Shown here: positions 53,424 to 64,000 of the stretch, in pieces | Numbering within the stretch: the first letter of the stretch is position 1 | How the letters are laid out: every line of letters begins with the position of its first letter | Assembly: GCA_009993955.1 (NCBI GenBank) | Contig: JAACSL010000016.1 | Coordinates: 1 to 64,000, forward strand | Length of the DNA stretch: 64,000 nt | From: Paraglaciecola sp. | Lineage (GTDB): Bacteria > Pseudomonadota > Gammaproteobacteria > Enterobacterales > Alteromonadaceae | Direction: 5' to 3' | The notes under the pieces: generated by a model | Seen by the model: only the letters and a program-made list of their open reading frames with translations | Told to the model about the DNA's origin: nothing | Databases searched by the model: none | Program-made: the position numbers and the translations under genes

Positions 53424-53747
53424 AACATCCTTGCAGAATTGGGATAAACGCAACGCCTTTAGCTTACCGCAGTAAGATAGAGGCGAACACTACTTTGTTT
53501 AAAAAATGCACAATGTGGTACTTAAATTTACGCACTGAATGGATAACGTCAGTGTAATAGGCTAAATGCAGAGGCAAGTTTGTTTTGTAGTTAGCTTGAT
53601 TTTTATGCCTAGGCTCAATGATTTAACGCTACACTGCGAACATCCGCCTCAAGTATTCAACGGGGGCGACAATCAACGTTGCTATGCTTGGGTAAATCAC
53701 TCATCATGCCGCCGTTATAAAAAGTAGTGTGTACCGAGGAACATATC
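53424..53747. other. intergenic region before the zinc-metallopeptidase gene
   Basis: 324 bp, AT-rich, with no credible gene or strong hairpin. It must hold divergent promoters for the diguanylate cyclase and the zinc metallopeptidase, but I could not place them. Confidence 0.5.
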
Positions 53748-54851
53748 GTGAAAACTTTTGTTTGCCAATGTGGAAACAAGACGCATTTTATCAACAGCAA
53801 GTGCGTTGCCTGTGGCCTGATGCTGGGTTTTTTACCAGACACGGGCCAAATGAGCGCCTTCACGCGACATCAAAGCGGTAAGCTACAAGCATCAAGCAAT
53901 GGGCGGGTTTACAAGCAGTGCAAAAATTATGTGGATCACAACGTGTGCAATTGGATGATCCCTGACGATGAGCCTCAAGAATACTGCTGTGCTTGTCAAC
54001 TCAACGAAGCGACCCCGAATCTTGCAGTGAAAGGTAACGCCACACTTTGGTATCGTTTAGAACAAGCAAAACGCCGTCTCTTATACACGCTGTTCAAATT
54101 CAAATTACCCGTGACTAACCGTAAACAAGACCCACTCACTGGCCTCGGCTTTGCCTTTTTAGAAGATGAGATCGAAGACGCCTTTGGCAAGGAGTTAACG
54201 GTCAAAAATTATGTCACTACCGGTCACAATGCCGGCATCATTACCATCAATGTCAATGAAGCAAAACACAGTTCACGTGTGCACATGCGCGAATTAATGA
54301 ATGAAGGTTATCGCACCCTAGTTGGCCACTTCCGCCATGAGGCAGGTCATTATTACTGGGACAGATTGATCAGGAATTCAGCCAACCTTAGTGCTTACAG
54401 AACGTTATTTGGTGATGAACGTATGGACTATGCTGAGGCCATGAAAGACTATTATGCCCAAGGCCCCAAAAAAAATTGGCAAAATGTGTGGATCAGCGCC
54501 TATGCCAGTATGCATCCATGGGAAGATTGGGCAGAAACCTGGGCTCACTACTTACACATGGTGGATACCCTTGAAACCGCCAGTGATTTTGATTTCAGTA
54601 TTTCGGGGAATAAAGTGGCCAATCCTTTGATGTTAGGTGAGCACTTAGATTTTGGTTACACCGCCACCAGTTTTACCCACATATTTAACGACTGGTGTCG
54701 TTTGACCGCCGCCTTAAATGGTTTGAATCGCAGCATGGGTTTAGATGATGCGTATCCGTTTGTGATTCCCATTACCGCCCTGAATAAGTTGCGTTTTGTG
54801 CATGAAGTTGTGATGCAAAATGCCCAACAGCCCATGCAACACGCTATTTAG
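53748..54851 (+). CDS. zinc-ribbon putative metallopeptidase (DUF2248/Peptidase_Mx type)
   Basis: 367 residues from GTG 53748, with GAGGA at 53736-53740. An N-terminal zinc ribbon (CQCG...CVACG, residues 5-27) and a second Cys cluster (CNW...CCACQ) precede a helical domain containing the zinc-protease motif HFRHEAGHYYWD (HExxH) and a downstream Glu-rich helix WEDWAETWAHYLHM. It is a predicted cytosolic metallopeptidase of unknown substrate. Its 3' end overlaps the Anbu gene by 8 bp in convergent orientation. Homologues often occur near ATP-grasp/alpha-E/Anbu genes, which suggests a shared pathway. Confidence 0.85.
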   Translation: MKTFVCQCGNKTHFINSKCVACGLMLGFLPDTGQMSAFTRHQSGKLQASSNGRVYKQCKNYVDHNVCNWMIPDDEPQEYCCACQLNEATPNLAVKGNATLWYRLEQAKRRLLYTLFKFKLPVTNRKQDPLTGLGFAFLEDEIEDAFGKELTVKNYVTTGHNAGIITINVNEAKHSSRVHMRELMNEGYRTLVGHFRHEAGHYYWDRLIRNSANLSAYRTLFGDERMDYAEAMKDYYAQGPKKNWQNVWISAYASMHPWEDWAETWAHYLHMVDTLETASDFDFSISGNKVANPLMLGEHLDFGYTATSFTHIFNDWCRLTAALNGLNRSMGLDDAYPFVIPITALNKLRFVHEVVMQNAQQPMQHAI

Positions 54852-55590
54852 TGACAGGTTTTTCCCATTCAAAACGCGGCAAACGATTAAAAGCCCGTTT
54901 GAGTCCTTCGTTCCAATGTTTTTGCACGGATTTGTACATCGTACTATTAACGTTTAATGAGGTGCGATAAGGCGCCTCAATGTGATTGTTAGTATGGATG
55001 GCCAACTCAATAGGTGGGCCAACGGAAATATTGCTGCGAATCGTGGAGTCCAACGAGACAATGGCACAGCGTGCCGCATCTTCTAACGAAGTCGTCGGGC
55101 CAATGATGCGATCAAGAATGGGTTTACCGTATTTATTTTCACCAATCTGCAAGTAAGGTGTTTCTGCCGACGCGGTAATGTAATTGCCTTGAGGATACAC
55201 TAAAAAAATCTCGCAGGGCTGCCCCGCTATCTGCCCACCCAAGATAAAGCTCGACTCCGCACTCATCATGGATTTACCCATGGCTTCAGCATGTTGTTTT
55301 TGTTCACGCTGACTTAATTGCCCAATATATTTGGCAATTTCGTGCAAATAATCCGCTTTCAACAAATTAAATTTAGCGTCAGGATCTTCTAAATCAGCCT
55401 TGATGGCATTAATCACAGCTTGCGACGTGGCCAGGCTGCCAGACGTTAATAAAACCAAAGTACGATTATTCGGGTAAACAAAGGTGGTCATTTTGCTATA
55501 AATTGCGACGTAATCGACACCCGCATTGGTACGGGAGTCCGACGCAAAGACCAAACCTTTGTTGACATTTAAGGCTAAACAGTAAGTCAA
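54844..55590 (-). CDS. Anbu (ancestral beta subunit) proteasome-like Ntn hydrolase
   Basis: 248 residues from TTG 55590. This start is chosen because removal of Met exposes the Thr in TYCLALNVNKGLVFASDSRT, the N-terminal nucleophile of the proteasome beta family; the longer open frame to 55653 would bury it. Counting Thr as 1, Asp17 and a Lys at 32 match the catalytic set. Length and blocks such as SAESSFILGGQIAGQP and RCAIVSLDSTIRSNISVG fit Anbu rather than HslV. Anbu forms open helical assemblies with no proven substrate. It is divergent from the ATP-grasp gene over a 174-bp spacer. Confidence 0.92.
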   Translation of the reverse strand: MTYCLALNVNKGLVFASDSRTNAGVDYVAIYSKMTTFVYPNNRTLVLLTSGSLATSQAVINAIKADLEDPDAKFNLLKADYLHEIAKYIGQLSQREQKQHAEAMGKSMMSAESSFILGGQIAGQPCEIFLVYPQGNYITASAETPYLQIGENKYGKPILDRIIGPTTSLEDAARCAIVSLDSTIRSNISVGPPIELAIHTNNHIEAPYRTSLNVNSTMYKSVQKHWNEGLKRAFNRLPRFEWEKPVTK

Positions 55591-55701
55591 TTTTATTCTC
55601 GCAATGCACTGTATGTGGACAACAGGGTGTGTCCAGAATGGTTCTTGAGGCATGACATTTTGAATGCCTCAGCAGAGAAACACAATTTATTTGTGGTAAA
55701 T

Positions 55702-55722
55702 ACGCCTTTATATGTAAGGCGT
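55702..55722. promoter_or_regulatory. hairpin in the Anbu / ATP-grasp divergent promoter region
   Basis: ACGCCTT and AAGGCGT form a 7-bp inverted repeat with a seven-base TATATGT centre, 43 bp before the ATP-grasp start. It could be an operator shared by the two divergent units. No known regulator consensus is recognised. Confidence 0.4.
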
Positions 55723-55764
55723 TATTTGTATACTGGATGTCCAAATAACAAGTAAGGAGTAGCT

Positions 55765-57219
55765 ATGACGATACGTTGGGGCAGTTACAAAGTAGGACAT
55801 TTGCATGACGAGTTAGTGCGAGTAGCCGGCAAGCCACGAGACTATGCGCAAGTACTCTGCGATTATTTACGCAATTTAAGTGATGCAGAATTGGTTGAAT
55901 ATAAAGCCGCCGCCGAATCTGCTATCCATGTTATGGGGATCACGTTTCGCGTTTATCACGACAAAGAAGGATCCATTGATCGTGCCTGGCCGTTCGACAT
56001 CATTCCGCGCCTCATTGACAAAAAAGAGTGGCAAACCATTGAAGTCGGCCTTAAACAACGGGTAAAAGCCCTGAATCTCTTTATTGATGATCTGTATAAC
56101 GAACAAAAAATTGTCAAAGACGGTGTTTTCCCTGCTGACTTACTAAAAAAATCCGAAAATTTCTTGCATGAATGTAAAGGGTTTAGCCCGCCACTGGGCA
56201 TTTGGGCACACATCTGTGGCTCAGACTTAGTGCGTGATAACAAAGGCACGGTCTATGTTTTAGAAGACAACCTGCGCGTGCCTTCTGGGGTGTCTTACAT
56301 GCTTGAAAATCGCCAAGTGATGAAGCGGGTCTTCCCAGAAATGTTTGAACAGTACAACATTATGCCGGTAGACAATTACCCATCCGATTTGTACGACATG
56401 TTAGCTGCCATGTCACCGCGTGACATTGCCGAACCCGAAATTGTGGTCCTCACCCCGGGGATCTACAACTCCGCCTACTTTGAACATGCCTATTTAGCCC
56501 AGCAAATGGGGGCTGAATTGGTAGTGGGTAGCGATTTAGTGGTGGGTGACGATGACTGTGTTTACATGCGTACCATCAATGGTTTGTCGCGGGTAGATGT
56601 GGTGTATCGACGCATTGATGATTGGTTTCTCGACCCTGAAGTATTTAATCCAGAATCTACTTTGGGTGTGCCGGGCATTATGCGTGCTTGGAAAGCCGGT
56701 AATGTGGCGCTGGCTAATGCGCCAGGCTCAGGGGTGGCCGACGACAAAGTGGTATATGCCTTCGTGCCAGACATCATCAAATATTATTTAGGTGAAGAGG
56801 CTATTCTGGCAAATGTACCCACCTATAAGTGTGTTAATCCGGATGAACGCGCCTATGTGCTAGAAAACATCGCGTCTATGGTGGTTAAGCCTGCCAATGA
56901 AAGTGGTGGTTACGGCATGTTGATTGGGCCGCATTCTTCTGCCAAAGAGCATGAAAAATTCCGTAAGCTTATTATCAAAGATCCACGTAACTATGTAGCG
57001 CAGCCCATGTTAATTCTATCTACAGCACCCACCATGGTGGACACCAAAGTAGAGCCGCGACATTTAGACTTACGCCCCTTTATTTTAAGTGGCAAAGATA
57101 TCAAGGTGACCACCGGTGGATTGACCCGGGTTGCCATGGTGAAAGGGTCAACGGTGGTTAACTCTTCGCAAGGTGGTGGCAGCAAAGATACGTGGATCGT
57201 TGATATGGAGGGCATGTAA
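55765..57219 (+). CDS. circularly permuted ATP-grasp type 2 protein (DUF404/DUF407)
   Basis: 484 residues, close to family length. Characteristic blocks are AWPFDIIPRLIDKKEWQTIE, RVKALNLFIDDLYNEQ, YVLEDNLRVPSGVSYMLENR, and the ATP-grasp segment VVKPANESGGYGMLIGP. The family is predicted to ligate an amino acid or peptide by a carboxylate-amine reaction, and is usually next to alpha-E and, in many genomes, Anbu or transglutaminase-like genes. RBS AAGGAG precedes the ATG. It opens the operon, and alpha-E begins one base after its stop. Confidence 0.95.
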   Translation: MTIRWGSYKVGHLHDELVRVAGKPRDYAQVLCDYLRNLSDAELVEYKAAAESAIHVMGITFRVYHDKEGSIDRAWPFDIIPRLIDKKEWQTIEVGLKQRVKALNLFIDDLYNEQKIVKDGVFPADLLKKSENFLHECKGFSPPLGIWAHICGSDLVRDNKGTVYVLEDNLRVPSGVSYMLENRQVMKRVFPEMFEQYNIMPVDNYPSDLYDMLAAMSPRDIAEPEIVVLTPGIYNSAYFEHAYLAQQMGAELVVGSDLVVGDDDCVYMRTINGLSRVDVVYRRIDDWFLDPEVFNPESTLGVPGIMRAWKAGNVALANAPGSGVADDKVVYAFVPDIIKYYLGEEAILANVPTYKCVNPDERAYVLENIASMVVKPANESGGYGMLIGPHSSAKEHEKFRKLIIKDPRNYVAQPMLILSTAPTMVDTKVEPRHLDLRPFILSGKDIKVTTGGLTRVAMVKGSTVVNSSQGGGSKDTWIVDMEGM

Positions 57220-57220
57220 T

Positions 57221-58150
57221 ATGTTGTCACGAGTAGCCAATAACTTATGTTGGATGGGACGTTATTTAGAACGTGCCGAGAATACAGCGCGCCTGATCAA
57301 CGTGAACTCCAACTTACTCTTGGATTTACCCAAGAGTATTGTTTTGGGCTGGGAGCCCATCGTCGATATTCTGTCCTTTCGTGAGCTGTATTACGCCAAA
57401 CATAAAGAGGCGACAGAACGCGGGGTTATTACCTTCATGGTGGCTGACAAAAATAACGCAGGCTCTATAGTCGGTTCATTAAGTGCCGCACGGGAAAATG
57501 CGCGCACTATTCGTGAAATTATCCCCCGTGAAGCATGGGAACAAATTAATGAACTGTATTTATTTGCCATTGATAATTGCCAAAAAGCCGTTGCAAGGCG
57601 CAGTCGTTATGAGTTTTTAAGCAAAATTATCGAATCAAATCAGATGATTACAGGCATACTCGCGGGCACCATGACCCACGACGAAGGTTATGAGTTCTTG
57701 CGGGTTGGTCGTAATATTGAACGCGCAGATATGACAACACGTATCATTGATGTGCGCTCCGCCTCCTTATTGCAAGAAACGGAAACTGAGCAGTCAGCTT
57801 TTGAAAATTTGCAGTGGATGAGCGTCTTAAAATCCTTAACCGCTTACCAAATGTATCGTCGAGAAATGCGTTTACGCATCAGAAGACCAGACGTTTTAAA
57901 GTTCTTGTTACTGGAAGATAGGTTTCCGCGCTCGTTGTTACATACCGTGCAACAAGCAGAGCAGTGTGTCAGAACCTTGCCTAATCATGAAGGCATCGTA
58001 GTGCACATCAAAGCGCTGGAAAGTAAGTTGTTGGCGGCGAACCCGCAAACGCTCATACAAGAAAAACTGCACGAGTTCATCGACGAAATGCAATTGGGCT
58101 TGATCAGTATATTTGATGCCATAAACGCCACGTATTTCTATCATGAATAA
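57221..58150 (+). CDS. alpha-E domain-containing protein (DUF403)
   Basis: 309 residues from ATG 57221; GGAGGG lies a short distance upstream inside the ATP-grasp gene. A longer frame from 57173 is not supported. The conserved start MLSRVANNLCWMGRYLERAE and helical blocks such as REIIPREAWEQINEL and FLRVGRNIERADMTTRIIDV mark the all-helical alpha-E family. It is the constant partner of DUF404/407 ATP-grasp proteins and probably forms a complex with them. It has no known catalytic residues. Confidence 0.95.
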   Translation: MLSRVANNLCWMGRYLERAENTARLINVNSNLLLDLPKSIVLGWEPIVDILSFRELYYAKHKEATERGVITFMVADKNNAGSIVGSLSAARENARTIREIIPREAWEQINELYLFAIDNCQKAVARRSRYEFLSKIIESNQMITGILAGTMTHDEGYEFLRVGRNIERADMTTRIIDVRSASLLQETETEQSAFENLQWMSVLKSLTAYQMYRREMRLRIRRPDVLKFLLLEDRFPRSLLHTVQQAEQCVRTLPNHEGIVVHIKALESKLLAANPQTLIQEKLHEFIDEMQLGLISIFDAINATYFYHE

Positions 58151-58181
58151 ATGTTCAACCATTGCTGAATGACGAGTCTTT

Positions 58182-60071
58182 GTGACTAATAAAACCGATA
58201 CTAAAGCGACACCCTTTGGCACCTTGCTGGGCATTGCACCCGGTGGGGTGCCTTCTTATTCCAGCGATTATGACAGCGCAGATGAACGTCAATATCCCAA
58301 TCGTGCCGCCTATCGTAGTTATTACGACGGCATTTACATGGGCTACAAGTGGCAGTGTGTAGAGTTTGCACGGCGTTGGTTGTACATCAATAAAGGTTAT
58401 ATTTTTAATGATGTGTCCATGGCCTATGAGATCTTCAATCTGCGCACAGTGCGAGAAGTAGCCACCAATCAGCTACTGCCTTTTCAAGCCTTTAAAAATG
58501 GTGCCCAGCGCCATCCTGAACCCGGATCGTTGTTGATTTGGGAAGAAGGCGGTGAGTTTAAACACACTGGGCATGTCGCCATTGTCACCGAAGTGACCGA
58601 TAATTATGTGCGCATTGTTGAGCAAAACATGGACTTTGCCTTATGGCCACAAGGCTGCGACTATTCCCGAGAAATACGCGCCAAAGTCGGCAGTGAAAAT
58701 GACTATTGGTTAGAGTGTTCTTTCAGTGATGCGACAATTTTGGGCTGGATGATTCAAACCCCAGATACGACCTTTAGTGAGATTATTGATCCTGATCCCG
58801 TTGAGTTATTTAATCTCAAGCCGGCGACGGCCCACACCTCATCCTATGTATATAAACCGTGGCTAAACATTGCCAATGCCGATGAAGCGGCGTATGTCGA
58901 GATGATGAAGGGGCACTGGTTAAGTTCGGTGCAAGATGATCATCTTAATTACTACATGATGTCCCAAACTGCCCAAGAAGCCTTGGAATCGGCAACAGAC
59001 GAGTTACATGGTATGTTCATGCACGCCACGGACTATGTGTTACAGCACGATCACCTCCTTGATCTGTTTGGTCTGCCCGCTTCAATTATTCCGCGTATTC
59101 GCCAATCTTGGGATAATCGCCTCAATCAATTGATCACCAGTCGTTTTGACTTTGCCATGTCGGAACGCGGCATCAAAGTCTACGAGTACAACTGCGATTC
59201 TGCCTCGTGTTACATGGAAACGGGCAAAGTACAGGGTAAATGGGCCAAGCATTTAGGCATCAAACACGGTGACGATGCCGGCGAACAATTGTTTAATGAA
59301 TTGGTGAAAGCCTGGCGTGAATCAGAGGTAGACGGTCTGGTGCATGTGCTGCAAGACAACGATGCAGAAGAAGATTACCACGCCCTGTTTATGTTATCGG
59401 CCATTGAAGCGGCGGGTCATCAAGGGCAACGTGTGGTGGGCTTGGCCTCGTTAAGTTGGAATGCAGAGGGCGATATTGTTGATGAACACGGCAATAAAGT
59501 GCGCTGGGTATGGAAAACCTGGGCCTGGGAAACGGCCCTAGATCAATTGCGTATTGAGCAGGATGCCAGCAAAGAGATCCACGATAAAATTCGCGCCCCC
59601 GGCAGTATCCCCAGCTTAAGTGACGTATTGTTGCGTAAAGAGATCATGGTATTTGAACCCTTATGGACCTTGATCCCAAGTAACAAAGCCATACTCCCGG
59701 TCTTATGGTCCTTGTTCCCCAATCACCCCTTGTTGTTGAATACCAGTTTTGAGTTAAGTGACGACCTGCTGGCCAGTGGTTATGTGGTAAAACCTATCGT
59801 CGGGCGCTGTGGTTATAACATCCAATTAATTGACAAAAATCACCAAGTATTGGCCAACAAAGATGGTGCCTTTGCGGATCGCGCACAAATTTATCAACAG
59901 TTATTTGCCTTGCCCAAAGTAGGCCCCTACTTTGTGCAAGTGTGTACCTTTACGGCAGCGGGAAACTACGCAGGCAGCGGCGTGCGGGTAGACAAAAGTA
60001 TGATTATCGGCAAAGACAGTGACTGCATGGCACTGCGTATTGACGATGATTTATCATTTTTAGATGGGTAG
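58182..60071 (+). CDS. gss: bifunctional glutathionylspermidine synthetase/amidase
   Basis: 629 residues (E. coli Gss has 619). The N-terminal CHAP-type amidase domain (about 1-200) has the catalytic Cys59 in KWQCVEFARRW, the same number as in E. coli, and His in KHTGHVAIVTEV. The C-terminal ATP-grasp-type synthetase (about 235-620) has KVYEYNCDSASCYMETG and VWKTWAWETA. It joins glutathione and spermidine using ATP and also hydrolyses the product. GTG 58182 is the likely start. It stands 31 bp after alpha-E and 6 bp before the M42-like gene. Confidence 0.95.
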   Translation: MTNKTDTKATPFGTLLGIAPGGVPSYSSDYDSADERQYPNRAAYRSYYDGIYMGYKWQCVEFARRWLYINKGYIFNDVSMAYEIFNLRTVREVATNQLLPFQAFKNGAQRHPEPGSLLIWEEGGEFKHTGHVAIVTEVTDNYVRIVEQNMDFALWPQGCDYSREIRAKVGSENDYWLECSFSDATILGWMIQTPDTTFSEIIDPDPVELFNLKPATAHTSSYVYKPWLNIANADEAAYVEMMKGHWLSSVQDDHLNYYMMSQTAQEALESATDELHGMFMHATDYVLQHDHLLDLFGLPASIIPRIRQSWDNRLNQLITSRFDFAMSERGIKVYEYNCDSASCYMETGKVQGKWAKHLGIKHGDDAGEQLFNELVKAWRESEVDGLVHVLQDNDAEEDYHALFMLSAIEAAGHQGQRVVGLASLSWNAEGDIVDEHGNKVRWVWKTWAWETALDQLRIEQDASKEIHDKIRAPGSIPSLSDVLLRKEIMVFEPLWTLIPSNKAILPVLWSLFPNHPLLLNTSFELSDDLLASGYVVKPIVGRCGYNIQLIDKNHQVLANKDGAFADRAQIYQQLFALPKVGPYFVQVCTFTAAGNYAGSGVRVDKSMIIGKDSDCMALRIDDDLSFLDG

Positions 60072-60077
60072 GCAAGC

Positions 60078-61169
60078 ATGATAAGTTCTGTAATACATCC
60101 CGCCACCCATGTTTCGTCGGGTCTACCAGAGTCATTTATTGAACTCCTGCGCACCTTGATCCGCAGCCCCAGTGTAGTGGGGGCTGAGCACTCATTTTTT
60201 CGAGTACTGCAACGAGAACTGGAAGAACGTGGCGCCAAAGTCACGTGGTACGAGGGTTTGCTGGTGGCGCAGGGCAGTAACCCTGATTCCTGCATGTTCT
60301 CTGCTCATATTGACCGTCATGGTCTAGTTTGCACCGGCCCCAACGAGTTTCAGTATGCCGCCTTTGTCGCCGGGGCACGTTCCGATTTATTGGGTAATTC
60401 AGTGAGTGAATCACTGATGCAAAAAATCGTGAATCGTTTTGATGCAGAAGAGGTATATGCCTTTGAGCCATGGTCTGGGGCTTATCGTGGGCGCGGCAAA
60501 ATTACCGGTGCTTACATTTGTGAATTTCGCAATAACCTGATCTTTCAGGTAGAGGGCTTAGATCACTTAGTAGCAGGCACACCAGTGGCGTTTACCGATA
60601 AGCTGATCATGACCGATGAGGCCTTGGTTGGCCAATTAGATAATGTGCTAACCACGGCGGCACTGGTGCATTTGTTTGAACAAGGTTTTCAAGGCACAGC
60701 GTTTTTTACCGCACAAGAAGAGGCGGGTAAAAGTTGGCGCTATCTGCTGGAGTGGTTCCGCCGTTTTGGTGGCTCAACCAATCAATTGATCGTGGTCGAT
60801 ACCAGCCCCTATCCTGATTTAGTCACTGCCAAACAGCAACAATTGGTATTACGAAATAAAGACGCAAACGCCAGTTTTAATGCTGAGCTGAACAAACAGC
60901 TGGTGGATATATGTCAGCACTTAGGCTGTAGTTTTCAATTTAAAGATGAGTACGTCACTGAACAAAATCGTTTACATGAGCTACGTGGCGAACCGTTGTC
61001 GTCTTACGGTTCAACTGAAATGGGGCGGATTATTGCCGCTTCTAATGGTTTAGTAGATGGCACCACCTTACAAATACCCTCCAGTGGTTATCACACCATG
61101 TCAGAATCCGCTCCCCTTGAATCGGTGCAAGCGTTTTTAGCCATACTTCAGCATCTCGCGGTGGATTGA
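60078..61169 (+). CDS. M42/M28-like zinc aminopeptidase or deacylase
   Basis: 363 residues, cytosolic. The dinuclear metal set can be read: His and Asp in SAHIDRHG, bridging Asp in GQLDNVLTTAAL, catalytic Glu pair in TAQEEAGKSW, Asp in VVDTSPYPD, and C-terminal His in SSGYHTMSESA. This resembles M42 (glutamyl-aminopeptidase/endoglucanase-like) peptidases. In this operon it could release an amino acid or peptide added by the ligases (inference). The next gene may begin in its last codons. Confidence 0.85.
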   Translation: MISSVIHPATHVSSGLPESFIELLRTLIRSPSVVGAEHSFFRVLQRELEERGAKVTWYEGLLVAQGSNPDSCMFSAHIDRHGLVCTGPNEFQYAAFVAGARSDLLGNSVSESLMQKIVNRFDAEEVYAFEPWSGAYRGRGKITGAYICEFRNNLIFQVEGLDHLVAGTPVAFTDKLIMTDEALVGQLDNVLTTAALVHLFEQGFQGTAFFTAQEEAGKSWRYLLEWFRRFGGSTNQLIVVDTSPYPDLVTAKQQQLVLRNKDANASFNAELNKQLVDICQHLGCSFQFKDEYVTEQNRLHELRGEPLSSYGSTEMGRIIAASNGLVDGTTLQIPSSGYHTMSESAPLESVQAFLAILQHLAVD

Positions 61170-61183
61170 CACCCTCAGATACT

Positions 61184-62881
61184 ATGACGCAACACATCCT
61201 CATCCCCAAGCTCGAGCAAGTGCTCGGCAAACAATATGTAATAAGTGATCCACGCCGCAACCGGCGCTATCGGCAGGGCTGGCGGAGTGGCAGCGGGCAA
61301 GCAGTGGCGGTGTTGTTGCCCCAAGATTTGCTGAGTTTCTATCGCTGTTTACAGGTGTGTGTGCAAGAGCGAGCCATCATTATCATTCAAGCTGCCAATA
61401 CCGGTTTAACAGAAGGTTCAACCCCCAGTGGTGCTGATTATGATCGGCCCGTGGTGGTGATCAATACCCTGGCCATGAATGCGCTGTATTTACTGAATCA
61501 CGGCGAACAAGTGCTGAGTTTTCCCGGCACCACTTTGTTCAAATTAGAGCAACATCTCAAACCACTGCAGCGGGCGCCGCATTCGGTGATTGGCTCGTCA
61601 TGTTTGGGGGCTTCGGTGGTAGGCGGTATCGCCAATAATTCTGGCGGCGCGTTAATCAAACGTGGCCCCGCCTATACCGAAATGGCCTTGTTTGCCCAAG
61701 TAAACGAGCAAGGGGAATTAGTGCTCGTTAACCATCTGGGCATTGATCTTGGTGATACACCCGAGGCCATGCTTGATAACTTAATGCAGGGACGTTTCCA
61801 ACAAGATGGGCTGACTCATAGCGCTTTGTGTTCAGATCAAGAATATGAACAACGGGTGCGAGCAGTAGACGAAGATTCGCCAAGCCGCTACAACGCCGAC
61901 CCTCGGCGTTTATTTGAAGCCAGTGGCTGTGCAGGCAAGCTTGCAGTGTTTGCGGTAAGGCTGGATACCTTTGCCATGAGCCAACAGGAACAGTGCTTTT
62001 ATATTGGCACCAATGACATGGCGGTGCTGCAAACATTACGTCGCGACATCCTACAGACATTCAAGCATTTGCCGGAAGTGGGTGAATACTTACATAAGGA
62101 CATGTTTGATATTGCTGCCGTTTATGGCAAAGACACCTTTTTAAGTGTGCAACTTCTTGGTACAGATCGACTACCTCGTTTATTTGCCCTAAAAAGTCGG
62201 GTAGATAGCTGGTGTAAACGACTACCATTTATTGCAGATAATGCCAGCGATCGCTTGATGCAATGGCTAAGCAGGCCATTCAAACAGCATTTGCCTGCTC
62301 GCATGTTGGCGTTTCGGGCCAAGTATGATCATCACCTCATACTCAAAATGAGTGACGCAGGCATTGCCGAAGCGAGTGCCTATTTGCAGGCATTTTTTCA
62401 ACAACATGCCGGTGACTATTTTGCATGTAGCAGCGAGGAGGGCAGTAAAGCCACCTTGCACCGCTTTGCCGCCGCCGGCGCAGCCATGCGCTATCACAGT
62501 TTGCATCAACAGCAACTTGGTGAGTTGTTATCTCTCGACATTGCTTTGCCGCGCAATGCGCAAGATTGGTTTGAAACCTTGCCGAGTGATATTAGTCAAC
62601 ACATTGATAAAGCCTTGTATTATGGGCATTTTTTCTGCCATGTTTTTCATCAAGACTATATCCTGAAAAAAGGCAGCGATGCGAAGTACATCAAACAAAA
62701 GATGCTCACTTTGCTGGCGCAGCGCCAAGCCAAATACCCTGCCGAACATAATGTTGGCCACTTGTATGCCGCAGAACCCAATTTGCGTGAATTTTACCAA
62801 AAACTCGATCCCACCAATACCTTTAACCCTGGCATTGGTCAAAGCGATAAACACCGTCGCCAATGCGCCTGCCAGCGCTGA
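61184..62881 (+). CDS. dld: quinone-dependent D-lactate dehydrogenase
   Basis: 565 residues from ATG 61184; a TTG at 61166 overlapping the upstream stop would give 571, the E. coli Dld length. It oxidises D-lactate to pyruvate with FAD and passes electrons to quinone at the inner membrane. The FAD-binding domain has AANTGLTEGSTPSG, PHSVIGSSCLGASVVGG and GPAYTEMALFA. The C-terminal part has EEGSKATLHRFAAAGAAMRY and AEHNVGHLY. It is the last gene of the operon. D-lactate is the end product of the glutathione-dependent glyoxalase route, which may explain its place next to gss (inference). Confidence 0.94.
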   Translation: MTQHILIPKLEQVLGKQYVISDPRRNRRYRQGWRSGSGQAVAVLLPQDLLSFYRCLQVCVQERAIIIIQAANTGLTEGSTPSGADYDRPVVVINTLAMNALYLLNHGEQVLSFPGTTLFKLEQHLKPLQRAPHSVIGSSCLGASVVGGIANNSGGALIKRGPAYTEMALFAQVNEQGELVLVNHLGIDLGDTPEAMLDNLMQGRFQQDGLTHSALCSDQEYEQRVRAVDEDSPSRYNADPRRLFEASGCAGKLAVFAVRLDTFAMSQQEQCFYIGTNDMAVLQTLRRDILQTFKHLPEVGEYLHKDMFDIAAVYGKDTFLSVQLLGTDRLPRLFALKSRVDSWCKRLPFIADNASDRLMQWLSRPFKQHLPARMLAFRAKYDHHLILKMSDAGIAEASAYLQAFFQQHAGDYFACSSEEGSKATLHRFAAAGAAMRYHSLHQQQLGELLSLDIALPRNAQDWFETLPSDISQHIDKALYYGHFFCHVFHQDYILKKGSDAKYIKQKMLTLLAQRQAKYPAEHNVGHLYAAEPNLREFYQKLDPTNTFNPGIGQSDKHRRQCACQR

Positions 62882-63013: not shown

Positions 63014-63712
63014 ATGAAACTAGCTTTAACGACCTTGTTCCTAATGCTTTGCTCCTTGCTGAATTTGGCTTGTGCCGCCACCGATAACCAATTATCTGCG
63101 TCTGAGCGAGAACAGGGTTGGACATTACTCTTTAATGGCCAAGACTTAAGTCAGTGGCGTAACTTCAAACACGATGCACTGCATTCTGGCTGGCAAATTA
63201 ATGAGGGCGCCATGCATTTGTCAGCGGGGGGCGCAGGTGACATTCTCAGTCGTGCCAGCTATCGCGATTTTGAACTGCAACTGGAATGGAAAATCGCTGA
63301 GGGCGGCAACAGCGGCATTTTTATTTTAGTGGACGAAAGCGGCCAATATATCTATTCCCACGCGCCAGAGGTCCAAATTCTCGACAATGCCAAACATAGT
63401 GACAACAAAATTGATTCCCATCGATCAGGCTCGTTATACGATATGGTGGCTGCACATCCATCTTCGTTCAAACCCGCCGGGCAATGGAATCAGGTGCGCA
63501 TCAAGCTACAAGACGACTTGCTGCAAGTCTGGCAAAACCAGGTGTGTACCACCAGCATTGTGCTGGGTAGTAGCACATGGCAAAAATTAGTCGCCGCCAG
63601 TAAGTTTGCGACCTGGCCGGGCTTTGGCGAACAACGCAGTGGACACATTGGCTTGCAGGATCATGGTGACAAAGTGTGGTTTAAGAATATAAAAATCAGG
63701 GAGCTAAACTGA
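63014..63712 (+). CDS. exported DUF1080 family protein (3-keto-disaccharide hydrolase-like)
   Basis: 232 residues with a signal peptide or lipoprotein-like signal (LLNLACA). The DUF1080 jelly roll is clear: GWTLLFNGQDLSQWRNF, DFELQLEWKIAEGGNSGIFI, YSHAPEVQILDNA and HIGLQDHGDKVWFKNIKI. Members act with GMC-type oxidoreductases in a 3-keto-glycoside route. The next gene is such an oxidoreductase, overlapping by one base (TGATG). Confidence 0.9.
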   Translation: MKLALTTLFLMLCSLLNLACAATDNQLSASEREQGWTLLFNGQDLSQWRNFKHDALHSGWQINEGAMHLSAGGAGDILSRASYRDFELQLEWKIAEGGNSGIFILVDESGQYIYSHAPEVQILDNAKHSDNKIDSHRSGSLYDMVAAHPSSFKPAGQWNQVRIKLQDDLLQVWQNQVCTTSIVLGSSTWQKLVAASKFATWPGFGEQRSGHIGLQDHGDKVWFKNIKIRELN

Positions 63713-64000
63713 TGGAAAATTTTCAACATCAAGTGGTGGTCGTAGGCTCTGGGGCCGGTGGCGCGATGGCAGCCTATGAACTGACAAAAGCCGGGATCAA
63801 GGTTTTGTTGTTAGAAGCGGGACGAGACTACGATCCTAAAACGGAAACACCGATGTTTCAGACTAACGCTGAGGCGCCTTTAATGGGCTCGGGTAACAGT
63901 GACAAAGACTTTGGCTTTTATGACGCCACCGTGGATGGTGGTTGGCAGGTGCCTGGTGAACCCTACACCAATGCACAAGACAGTGATGTAGAGTTTATGT
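63712..64000 (+). CDS. GMC family oxidoreductase, truncated by the window edge
   Basis: Only the first 96 residues are visible. They start MENFQHQVVVVGSGAGGAMA, an FAD-binding Rossmann motif (GxGxxG), followed by the second strand ending LLLEAGRDY. This matches GMC flavoenzymes related to gluconate 2-dehydrogenase and glycoside 3-oxidases. It is translationally coupled to the DUF1080 gene. The frame is open at the right edge. Confidence 0.85.
   Translation, partial: MENFQHQVVVVGSGAGGAMAAYELTKAGIKVLLLEAGRDYDPKTETPMFQTNAEAPLMGSGNSDKDFGFYDATVDGGWQVPGEPYTNAQDSDVEFM

Follow-up and report, generated by a model that had tools for sequence, protein, structure and literature searches.

The locus considered here raises the question of why a gene for bifunctional glutathionylspermidine synthetase/amidase (Gss) should stand in one run with the ATP-grasp and alpha-E partners of the proteasome-like protein Anbu. 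The window is a stretch of 64,000 nucleotides, positions 1–64000 of contig JAACSL010000016.1 of a Paraglaciecola sp. genome (4.16 Mb in 82 contigs), and the locus occupies positions 53748 to 62881. The reading we prefer, with a rough probability of 0.4, is that the locus is a lineage-specific variant of the known system of Anbu, ATP-grasp, alpha-E, transglutaminase-like protein (TGase) and DUF2126 that has recruited gss and an M42-like gene, perhaps within a shared economy of amide and polyamine nitrogen.

The seven genes named in an earlier note on this DNA are all confirmed as open reading frames, and all except the M42-like gene, whose family match is below threshold, also by Pfam or NCBIfam. 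A putative zinc metallopeptidase with Zn_ribbon_DZR_6 and Peptidase_Mx domains (53748–54851, plus strand; PF15887 330.5 bits, PF10005 83.1 bits; motif HEAGH) is convergent with the gene of the Anbu subunit (54844–55590, minus strand; PF00227 25.3 bits, cut-off 22.4; PDB 5loy, E 6e-74); the metallopeptidase reading frame spans 53727–54851 on the plus strand, and the codon at 53748 is compatible with the start noted earlier. Beyond a divergent intergenic region of 174 nt (55591–55764) lies the gene of the ATP-grasp protein, a circularly permuted amidoligase (CP_ATPgrasp_1/2; 55765–57219, plus strand; 557 bits; PDB 3n6x, E 1.6e-157) that is the sole match in its own genome at E ≤ 0.001. It is followed on the plus strand by the genes of the all-helical protein alpha-E (57221–58150, ATG start; PF04168 306 bits), Gss, with its CHAP amidase domain (58182–60071; NF007801 933.4 bits, cut-off 882; PDB 2io7, E 8.7e-195), the M42-like putative metallo-aminopeptidase (60078–61169; PF05343 22.6 bits, cut-off 23.2 not reached) and the quinone-dependent D-lactate dehydrogenase Dld (61166–62881; NF008387 901.6 bits, cut-off 391), the last probably a passenger in the operon. 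The spacings of 1 nt (ATP-grasp/alpha-E), 31 nt (alpha-E/Gss) and 6 nt (Gss/M42), with a 4-nt overlap or 14-nt gap between M42 and Dld depending on the start chosen, and the divergent gap itself bear out the tight plus-strand operon, divergent from Anbu, that had been proposed.

The first part of this locus is familiar. Among the best 80 of 169 loci found by Anbu similarity, Peptidase_Mx is present on 62, ATP-grasp on 72 and alpha-E on 71, counts that, like all those on these named loci, are lower bounds that come from single queries and include loci cut by contig ends. Peptidase_Mx is convergent on Anbu within 400 bp in 57 of the 80 and ATP-grasp divergent from it within 400 bp in 50. The facing Peptidase_Mx gene is therefore one of the core partners of Anbu in the named loci, where a TGase next to Anbu is exceptional. 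Judged by sequence, the block Peptidase_Mx–Anbu–ATP-grasp–alpha-E is the conserved core of a known system, and the tie drawn earlier to the published Anbu/ATP-grasp/alpha-E system holds. ATP-grasp, alpha-E and Anbu stand here in one locus, as in an Anbu operon, and Anbu itself occurs in 11 of 60 relatives (own genome included). The Anbu reading frame spans 54844–55653 on the minus strand, and relatives share the TTG start at 55590 rather than the ATG further upstream at 55653; this TTG puts Thr1 next, the alignment to 5loy begins at Thr1, and Asp17 and Lys32(33), residues whose roles are given in the excerpted text of PMC6376114, are also present. In one genome of a second genus (G023; L045, L054) the system is naturally split: ATP-grasp, alpha-E and Peptidase_Mx are packed tightly on one strand together with gss, and Anbu lies apart from them.

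The rarer genes are those that set the window apart. On the 80 named loci a TGase relative is found on 14, DUF2126 on seven, Gss and M42 on two each and Dld on one, so that the addition of gss and an M42-like gene to an Anbu operon is indeed as unusual as had been supposed; a literature search, with most subscription journals outside its coverage, returned no account of a locus joining Anbu and glutathionylspermidine. The closest named loci are those of Paraglaciecola sp. MAG_65 (L066, identical to L044) and Paraglaciecola hydrolytica S66 (L067). In MAG_65 a single strand carries, in this order, ATP-grasp, alpha-E, Gss, M42, TGase, DUF2126, Dld and an MscS-type channel; in P. hydrolytica ATP-grasp, alpha-E, Gss and M42 are followed by a chemotaxis receptor and a JmjC-like gene. 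As judged from gene order and family matches, the ATP-grasp operon of a Paraglaciecola sub-clade has gained gss and the M42-like gene; one sister genome has TGase, DUF2126, Dld and the channel in it as well.

The added Gss is full length, carries Cys59, His131 and Glu147 at the E. coli Gss positions, and has the GSP_synth domain; His131 and Glu147 are presumably catalytic. It resembles E. coli Gss (2io7) in being a full-length bifunctional protein with the same catalytic residue numbers, and the role of Cys59 is described in the excerpted part of PMC6272389. By these residues and domains it is a true bifunctional glutathionylspermidine synthetase/amidase. Eight of nine unlinked same-genus gss loci (L055–L061 and L063; the exception is L062) have a gene for an MscS-type mechanosensitive channel adjoining gss, divergently in five and co-directionally in three (Pfam was run on four of the MscS-type proteins), and an MscS-type gene also closes the merged operon of MAG_65 (L044:413–1282). 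A connection between Gss and osmotic or polyamine/thiol efflux is possible.

The earlier note had reported the usual transglutaminase-like member absent and had suggested that the CHAP amidase of Gss takes its place. The interval 53.7–62.9 kb indeed holds no TGase. A TGase gene (Bact_transglu_N and Transglut_core domains) nevertheless lies just outside the window, at contig positions 67603–68472 on the plus strand, next to a separate DUF2126 gene (68476–70728, plus strand; PF09899 693 bits, over cut-off); the pair shares contig and strand with Dld and lies 4.7 kb past it. Read by eye, the protein keeps the Cys, His and Asp motif residues that we take to identify a transglutaminase. Between Dld and TGase lie genes for DUF1080, a GMC oxidoreductase, gluconate 2-dehydrogenase subunit 3 and, on the opposite strand, a solute-binding protein, so TGase and DUF2126 are not in one operon with Dld in the window genome. 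In the MAG_65 operon, which also holds gss, TGase and DUF2126 stand between M42 and Dld. Moreover, among the 78 named Anbu loci without gss, 65 show no TGase relative either (a single-query search in which some contigs are cut), and one of the 14 loci with a TGase relative is a gss locus. Since loci without gss mostly also lack a TGase relative, and since the window genome has its TGase on the same contig, gss is not a stand-in for TGase; the replacement once proposed is highly improbable.

The reach of the extension was followed in a larger family sample (395 genomes), a family sample (196), an order sample (247) and a class-wide sample (239, own included), with full-length Gss in family genomes taken as E ≤ 1e-100. 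Gss occurs in 30 of the 395 genomes, and flanks of up to 1.5 kb on all 30 place a gene of the Anbu block beside gss in four (the window genome, G000; MAG_65, G005; P. hydrolytica, G011; and G023) and M42 beside gss in four (G000, G005, G011 and G335). The gene order in G023 is Gss, Peptidase_Mx, ATP-grasp, alpha-E, with TGase and DUF2126 elsewhere; in G335, from a third genus, gss adjoins M42 and ATP-grasp is on another contig. The linkage of gss thus extends beyond this strain, confinement to which had been named as fatal to the idea of a system: gss and M42 are linked in the three Paraglaciecola genomes just named, but Dld in only two of the three, there being none on the P. hydrolytica stretch examined. 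In the family sample Gss is found in 19 genomes and ATP-grasp in 51, and they occur together in 11 where 4.9 are expected (P 0.002), three of these linked (G000, G011, G023); this and the other P values treat genomes as independent and ignore kinship. In the own genus (22 genomes) full-length Gss is present in 8/8 Anbu carriers versus 4/14 others (P 0.0015). Class-wide, Gss occurs in 2/239 genomes, own included, and in G473, the second carrier, the 12 kb contig bears no further query gene.

The Gss tree argues that such linkage arose more than once. The linked copies of the three Paraglaciecola genomes share one clade (100/98), whereas the Gss of G023 falls with two unlinked congeneric copies (100/100). 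Over the 16 rows counted, with 17 others in no group, two changes of label are forced by the starred branches. Because of these two forced changes, the grouping of G023 with unlinked congeners, and its different gene order, two separate linkage events are indicated, and gss was probably recruited to the Anbu core twice; the alternative is one old linkage broken many times. The ATP-grasp tree draws G023 with unlinked relatives (98/94) and divides the Paraglaciecola loci into two groups, L043, L044 and the window versus L047–L051, of which the second joins Alteromonas rows including A. oceanisediminis (97/96); these branchings suggest more than one entry or move of the Anbu locus in Paraglaciecola. 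Taken together, the recruitment of gss and M42 is real and probably recurrent, but narrow.

Several results weigh against recruitment into a shared function. The ATP-grasp tree as labelled does not demand two events, its four linked rows forming one group as against five other Paraglaciecola rows, with 19 rows uncounted. In the order sample full-length Gss is present in 36 genomes, ATP-grasp in 30 and both in seven, of which two are linked (G000, G023) and five have the genes on different contigs; seven where 4.4 are expected is not significant (P 0.12), and three of the five unlinked genomes (G239, G170, G109) show no ATP-grasp on their gss stretches. In the family sample eight of the 11 genomes with both are unlinked, the two genes being separated by 45 kb or more or lying on different contigs, although many genomes with both genes are drafts with the genes on different contigs. 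P. hydrolytica gives no match to DUF2126 despite its gss–M42 extension, and M42-like genes elsewhere mostly have neighbors other than those of the window locus. A scan of 60 divergent Anbu/ATP-grasp intergenic regions (some of them the same DNA twice) for sigma-54/NtrC sites reveals no shared site. According to the excerpts of PMC6376114, no peptidase or amidase activity was detected for Yersinia bercovieri Anbu and no specific interactions were found among its operon proteins; the excerpts of PMC5666114 favor protein degradation over peptide synthesis for Anbu and report that expression of Anbu and its operon partners was unchanged in several conditions, although it rose in nitrogen-limited Pseudomonas putida.

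Because most genomes with both systems keep them apart, a neighborhood accident is a close rival, and one that we regard as quite possible while short of an even chance: gss, the M42-like gene and Dld would have landed behind alpha-E in one Paraglaciecola ancestor and would be co-transcribed without sharing a pathway with Anbu. The differing neighbors of M42 elsewhere, the P. hydrolytica stretch without Dld, and the split of the Paraglaciecola loci in the ATP-grasp tree, which indicates that the region moves, all fit this account. It is less easily reconciled with a second gss–core linkage in G023 and a second gss–M42 linkage in G335, and two given genes would fall within 3 kb in a 4.5 Mb genome by chance with a probability of ∼0.0013, though many gene pairs could be considered.

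At the other extreme, all the genes might serve one pathway, in which glutathionylspermidine or a polyamine–glutathione adduct made by Gss is extended by ATP-grasp and alpha-E and cut by Anbu, M42 or the Gss amidase. The repeated gss–core linkage speaks for this, as does the name of 3n6x, the sole solved ATP-grasp relative found by sequence, which is called a putative glutathionylspermidine synthase, although that name is annotation only. Gss is, however, beside Anbu in just 2/80 loci, full-length Gss is missing in 40 of the 51 family genomes with ATP-grasp, and G025 and G049 have Anbu with no full-length Gss. In view of these counts its product cannot be the general Anbu substrate, and we consider a single pathway unlikely. 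The more specific proposal that glutathionylspermidine, or a polyamine–thiol peptide built on it, is a physiological substrate of the Anbu-linked ATP-grasp and alpha-E, with Anbu and the M42-like protein hydrolyzing the product, is more doubtful still.

The family of the M42-like protein is very conserved, with a mean column identity of 75% over 14 sequences, and H77, D79, D188, E214, E215, D241 and H339 are invariant in 14/14. These residues fit the series His/Asp/Glu-Glu/Asp/His, which we take to be the M42 metal-site pattern. Ten of the 14 homologues match PF05343 at E ≤ 0.001, and the N-terminal part gives a weak profile match to the M42-type aminopeptidase chain 9qr6 (E 0.053); an AlphaFold2 (AF2) model built from three sequences has a mean predicted local distance difference test (pLDDT) score of 36.6. 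In a survey of 46 genomes (45 and the own), M42 and full-length Gss occur together in nine and are adjacent in four. M42 as a fixed partner of Anbu was considered and rejected: five same-genus genomes with both keep M42 elsewhere, and G006 and G008 carry M42 with no Anbu match. In genus g29, from another family of the order, each of the two genomes seen (G049, L148; G094, L149/L150) has an M42-like gene in the wider surroundings of Anbu, at ∼7 and ∼13 kb and separated from it by other genes, which is either a loose echo of linkage or chance.

Regulation was considered from the intergenic region. Upstream of ATP-grasp the two sister genomes share with the window a −10-like element, TATACT, but promoter-like matches in the 174-nt region are no more frequent than in shuffles. 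Control of the window operon by sigma-54/NtrC was rejected, as its best site is at chance (p 0.52 versus 200 base shuffles) and no site is common to the set; weak matches occur in MAG_65 and P. hydrolytica (0.02–0.06) and, at other positions, in a few other regions (0.04–0.10). Two perfect 8-nt inverted repeats (window 55646–55671 and 55721–55749) are not kept in the two sister genomes. In P. putida on nitrate versus ammonium, the excerpted data of PMC8050072 list Anbu up by log2 4.44 and ATP-grasp by log2 3.99 together with urt, ure and nas genes, and the excerpts of PMC3597751 associate DUF403/404/407 and Bact_transglu_N with urea metabolism domains in marine metagenomes. Because no shared sigma-54 site was found, nitrogen control of the window operon is borrowed from P. 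putida and would hold by analogy.

Comparison with known systems places the locus as a variant. The Anbu operon of Yersinia bercovieri and others (ATP-grasp, alpha-E, transglutaminase-like protein, Anbu) is described in the excerpts of PMC6376114 and PMC5666114 as making amide bonds, with Anbu as a possible hydrolase, and in PMC6376114 its ATP-grasp releases phosphate from ATP. The window Anbu matches the solved Anbu chains, and its ATP-grasp and alpha-E belong to the same Pfam families, whereas its Anbu is divergent from the operon and faced by Peptidase_Mx, gss and the M42-like gene are added, and TGase lies further off with DUF2126. Clusters of TGase, DUF2126, ATP-grasp and alpha-E in G204, G239, G130 and G318 encode proteins to which the window TGase and DUF2126 are 36–40% identical, but show no Anbu on the stretches examined; they have a second TGase and a further ATP-grasp/alpha-E pair, which in G130 and G239 is a single open frame of ∼850 aa, whereas the window genome has one ATP-grasp and separate TGase and DUF2126 genes. 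The rim and rlo loci, as excerpted from PMC12239564, pair an ATP-grasp with a retropepsin, rlo adding an inactive TGase; the resemblance, an ATP-grasp joined by a peptidase and, for rlo, also by a TGase-like protein, is one of working principle only, and the peptidase type differs.

Under the preferred reading, that of a recruited variant, ATP-grasp with alpha-E would join a carboxylate to an amine, TGase and DUF2126 would act on the same or a related amide, and Anbu with the two peptidase-like proteins would break amides again. Gss would work in parallel, as in E. coli, keeping glutathione and spermidine in store in the form of glutathionylspermidine and setting both free again, and in the Paraglaciecola lineage this store and a further peptidase would have been put under the same promoter. 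Transcribed together, several reversible makers and breakers of amide bonds that act on the nitrogen of glutathione, polyamines and peptides would answer to a single control. It would most likely serve under stress or when nitrogen is limiting, given that in P. putida the Anbu operon reacts to the source of nitrogen. Gss is then an added branch.

Further observations concern the alpha-E protein and the surroundings. The AF2 model of alpha-E is confident (pLDDT 90, predicted template modeling score 0.89), and a Foldseek comparison with solved structures gives a best PDB match of E 0.46 and none below, so that the modeled protein is possibly a new fold. The DUF1080 (3-keto-disaccharide hydrolase), GMC oxidoreductase and gluconate 2-dehydrogenase subunit 3 genes form a probable operon downstream (window 63014–64000, continuing on the contig to ∼66154), and homologues of these genes are also found near the P. 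hydrolytica locus. Anti-phage defense models from PADLOC match none of nine proteins at E ≤ 0.001.

The anatomy of the locus is thus corrected: TGase and DUF2126 are present, Peptidase_Mx is a core partner, and gss has probably been recruited twice. The core is already known, and what is new is the joining of gss and an M42-like gene to the Anbu operon, a rare local arrangement that hints at the substrate of the system. Anbu is a widespread proteasome relative, and Gss, an enzyme of known chemistry beside it, offers a concrete substrate class to consider; a substrate based on glutathionylspermidine, if true, would be the first defined chemistry for the Anbu system.

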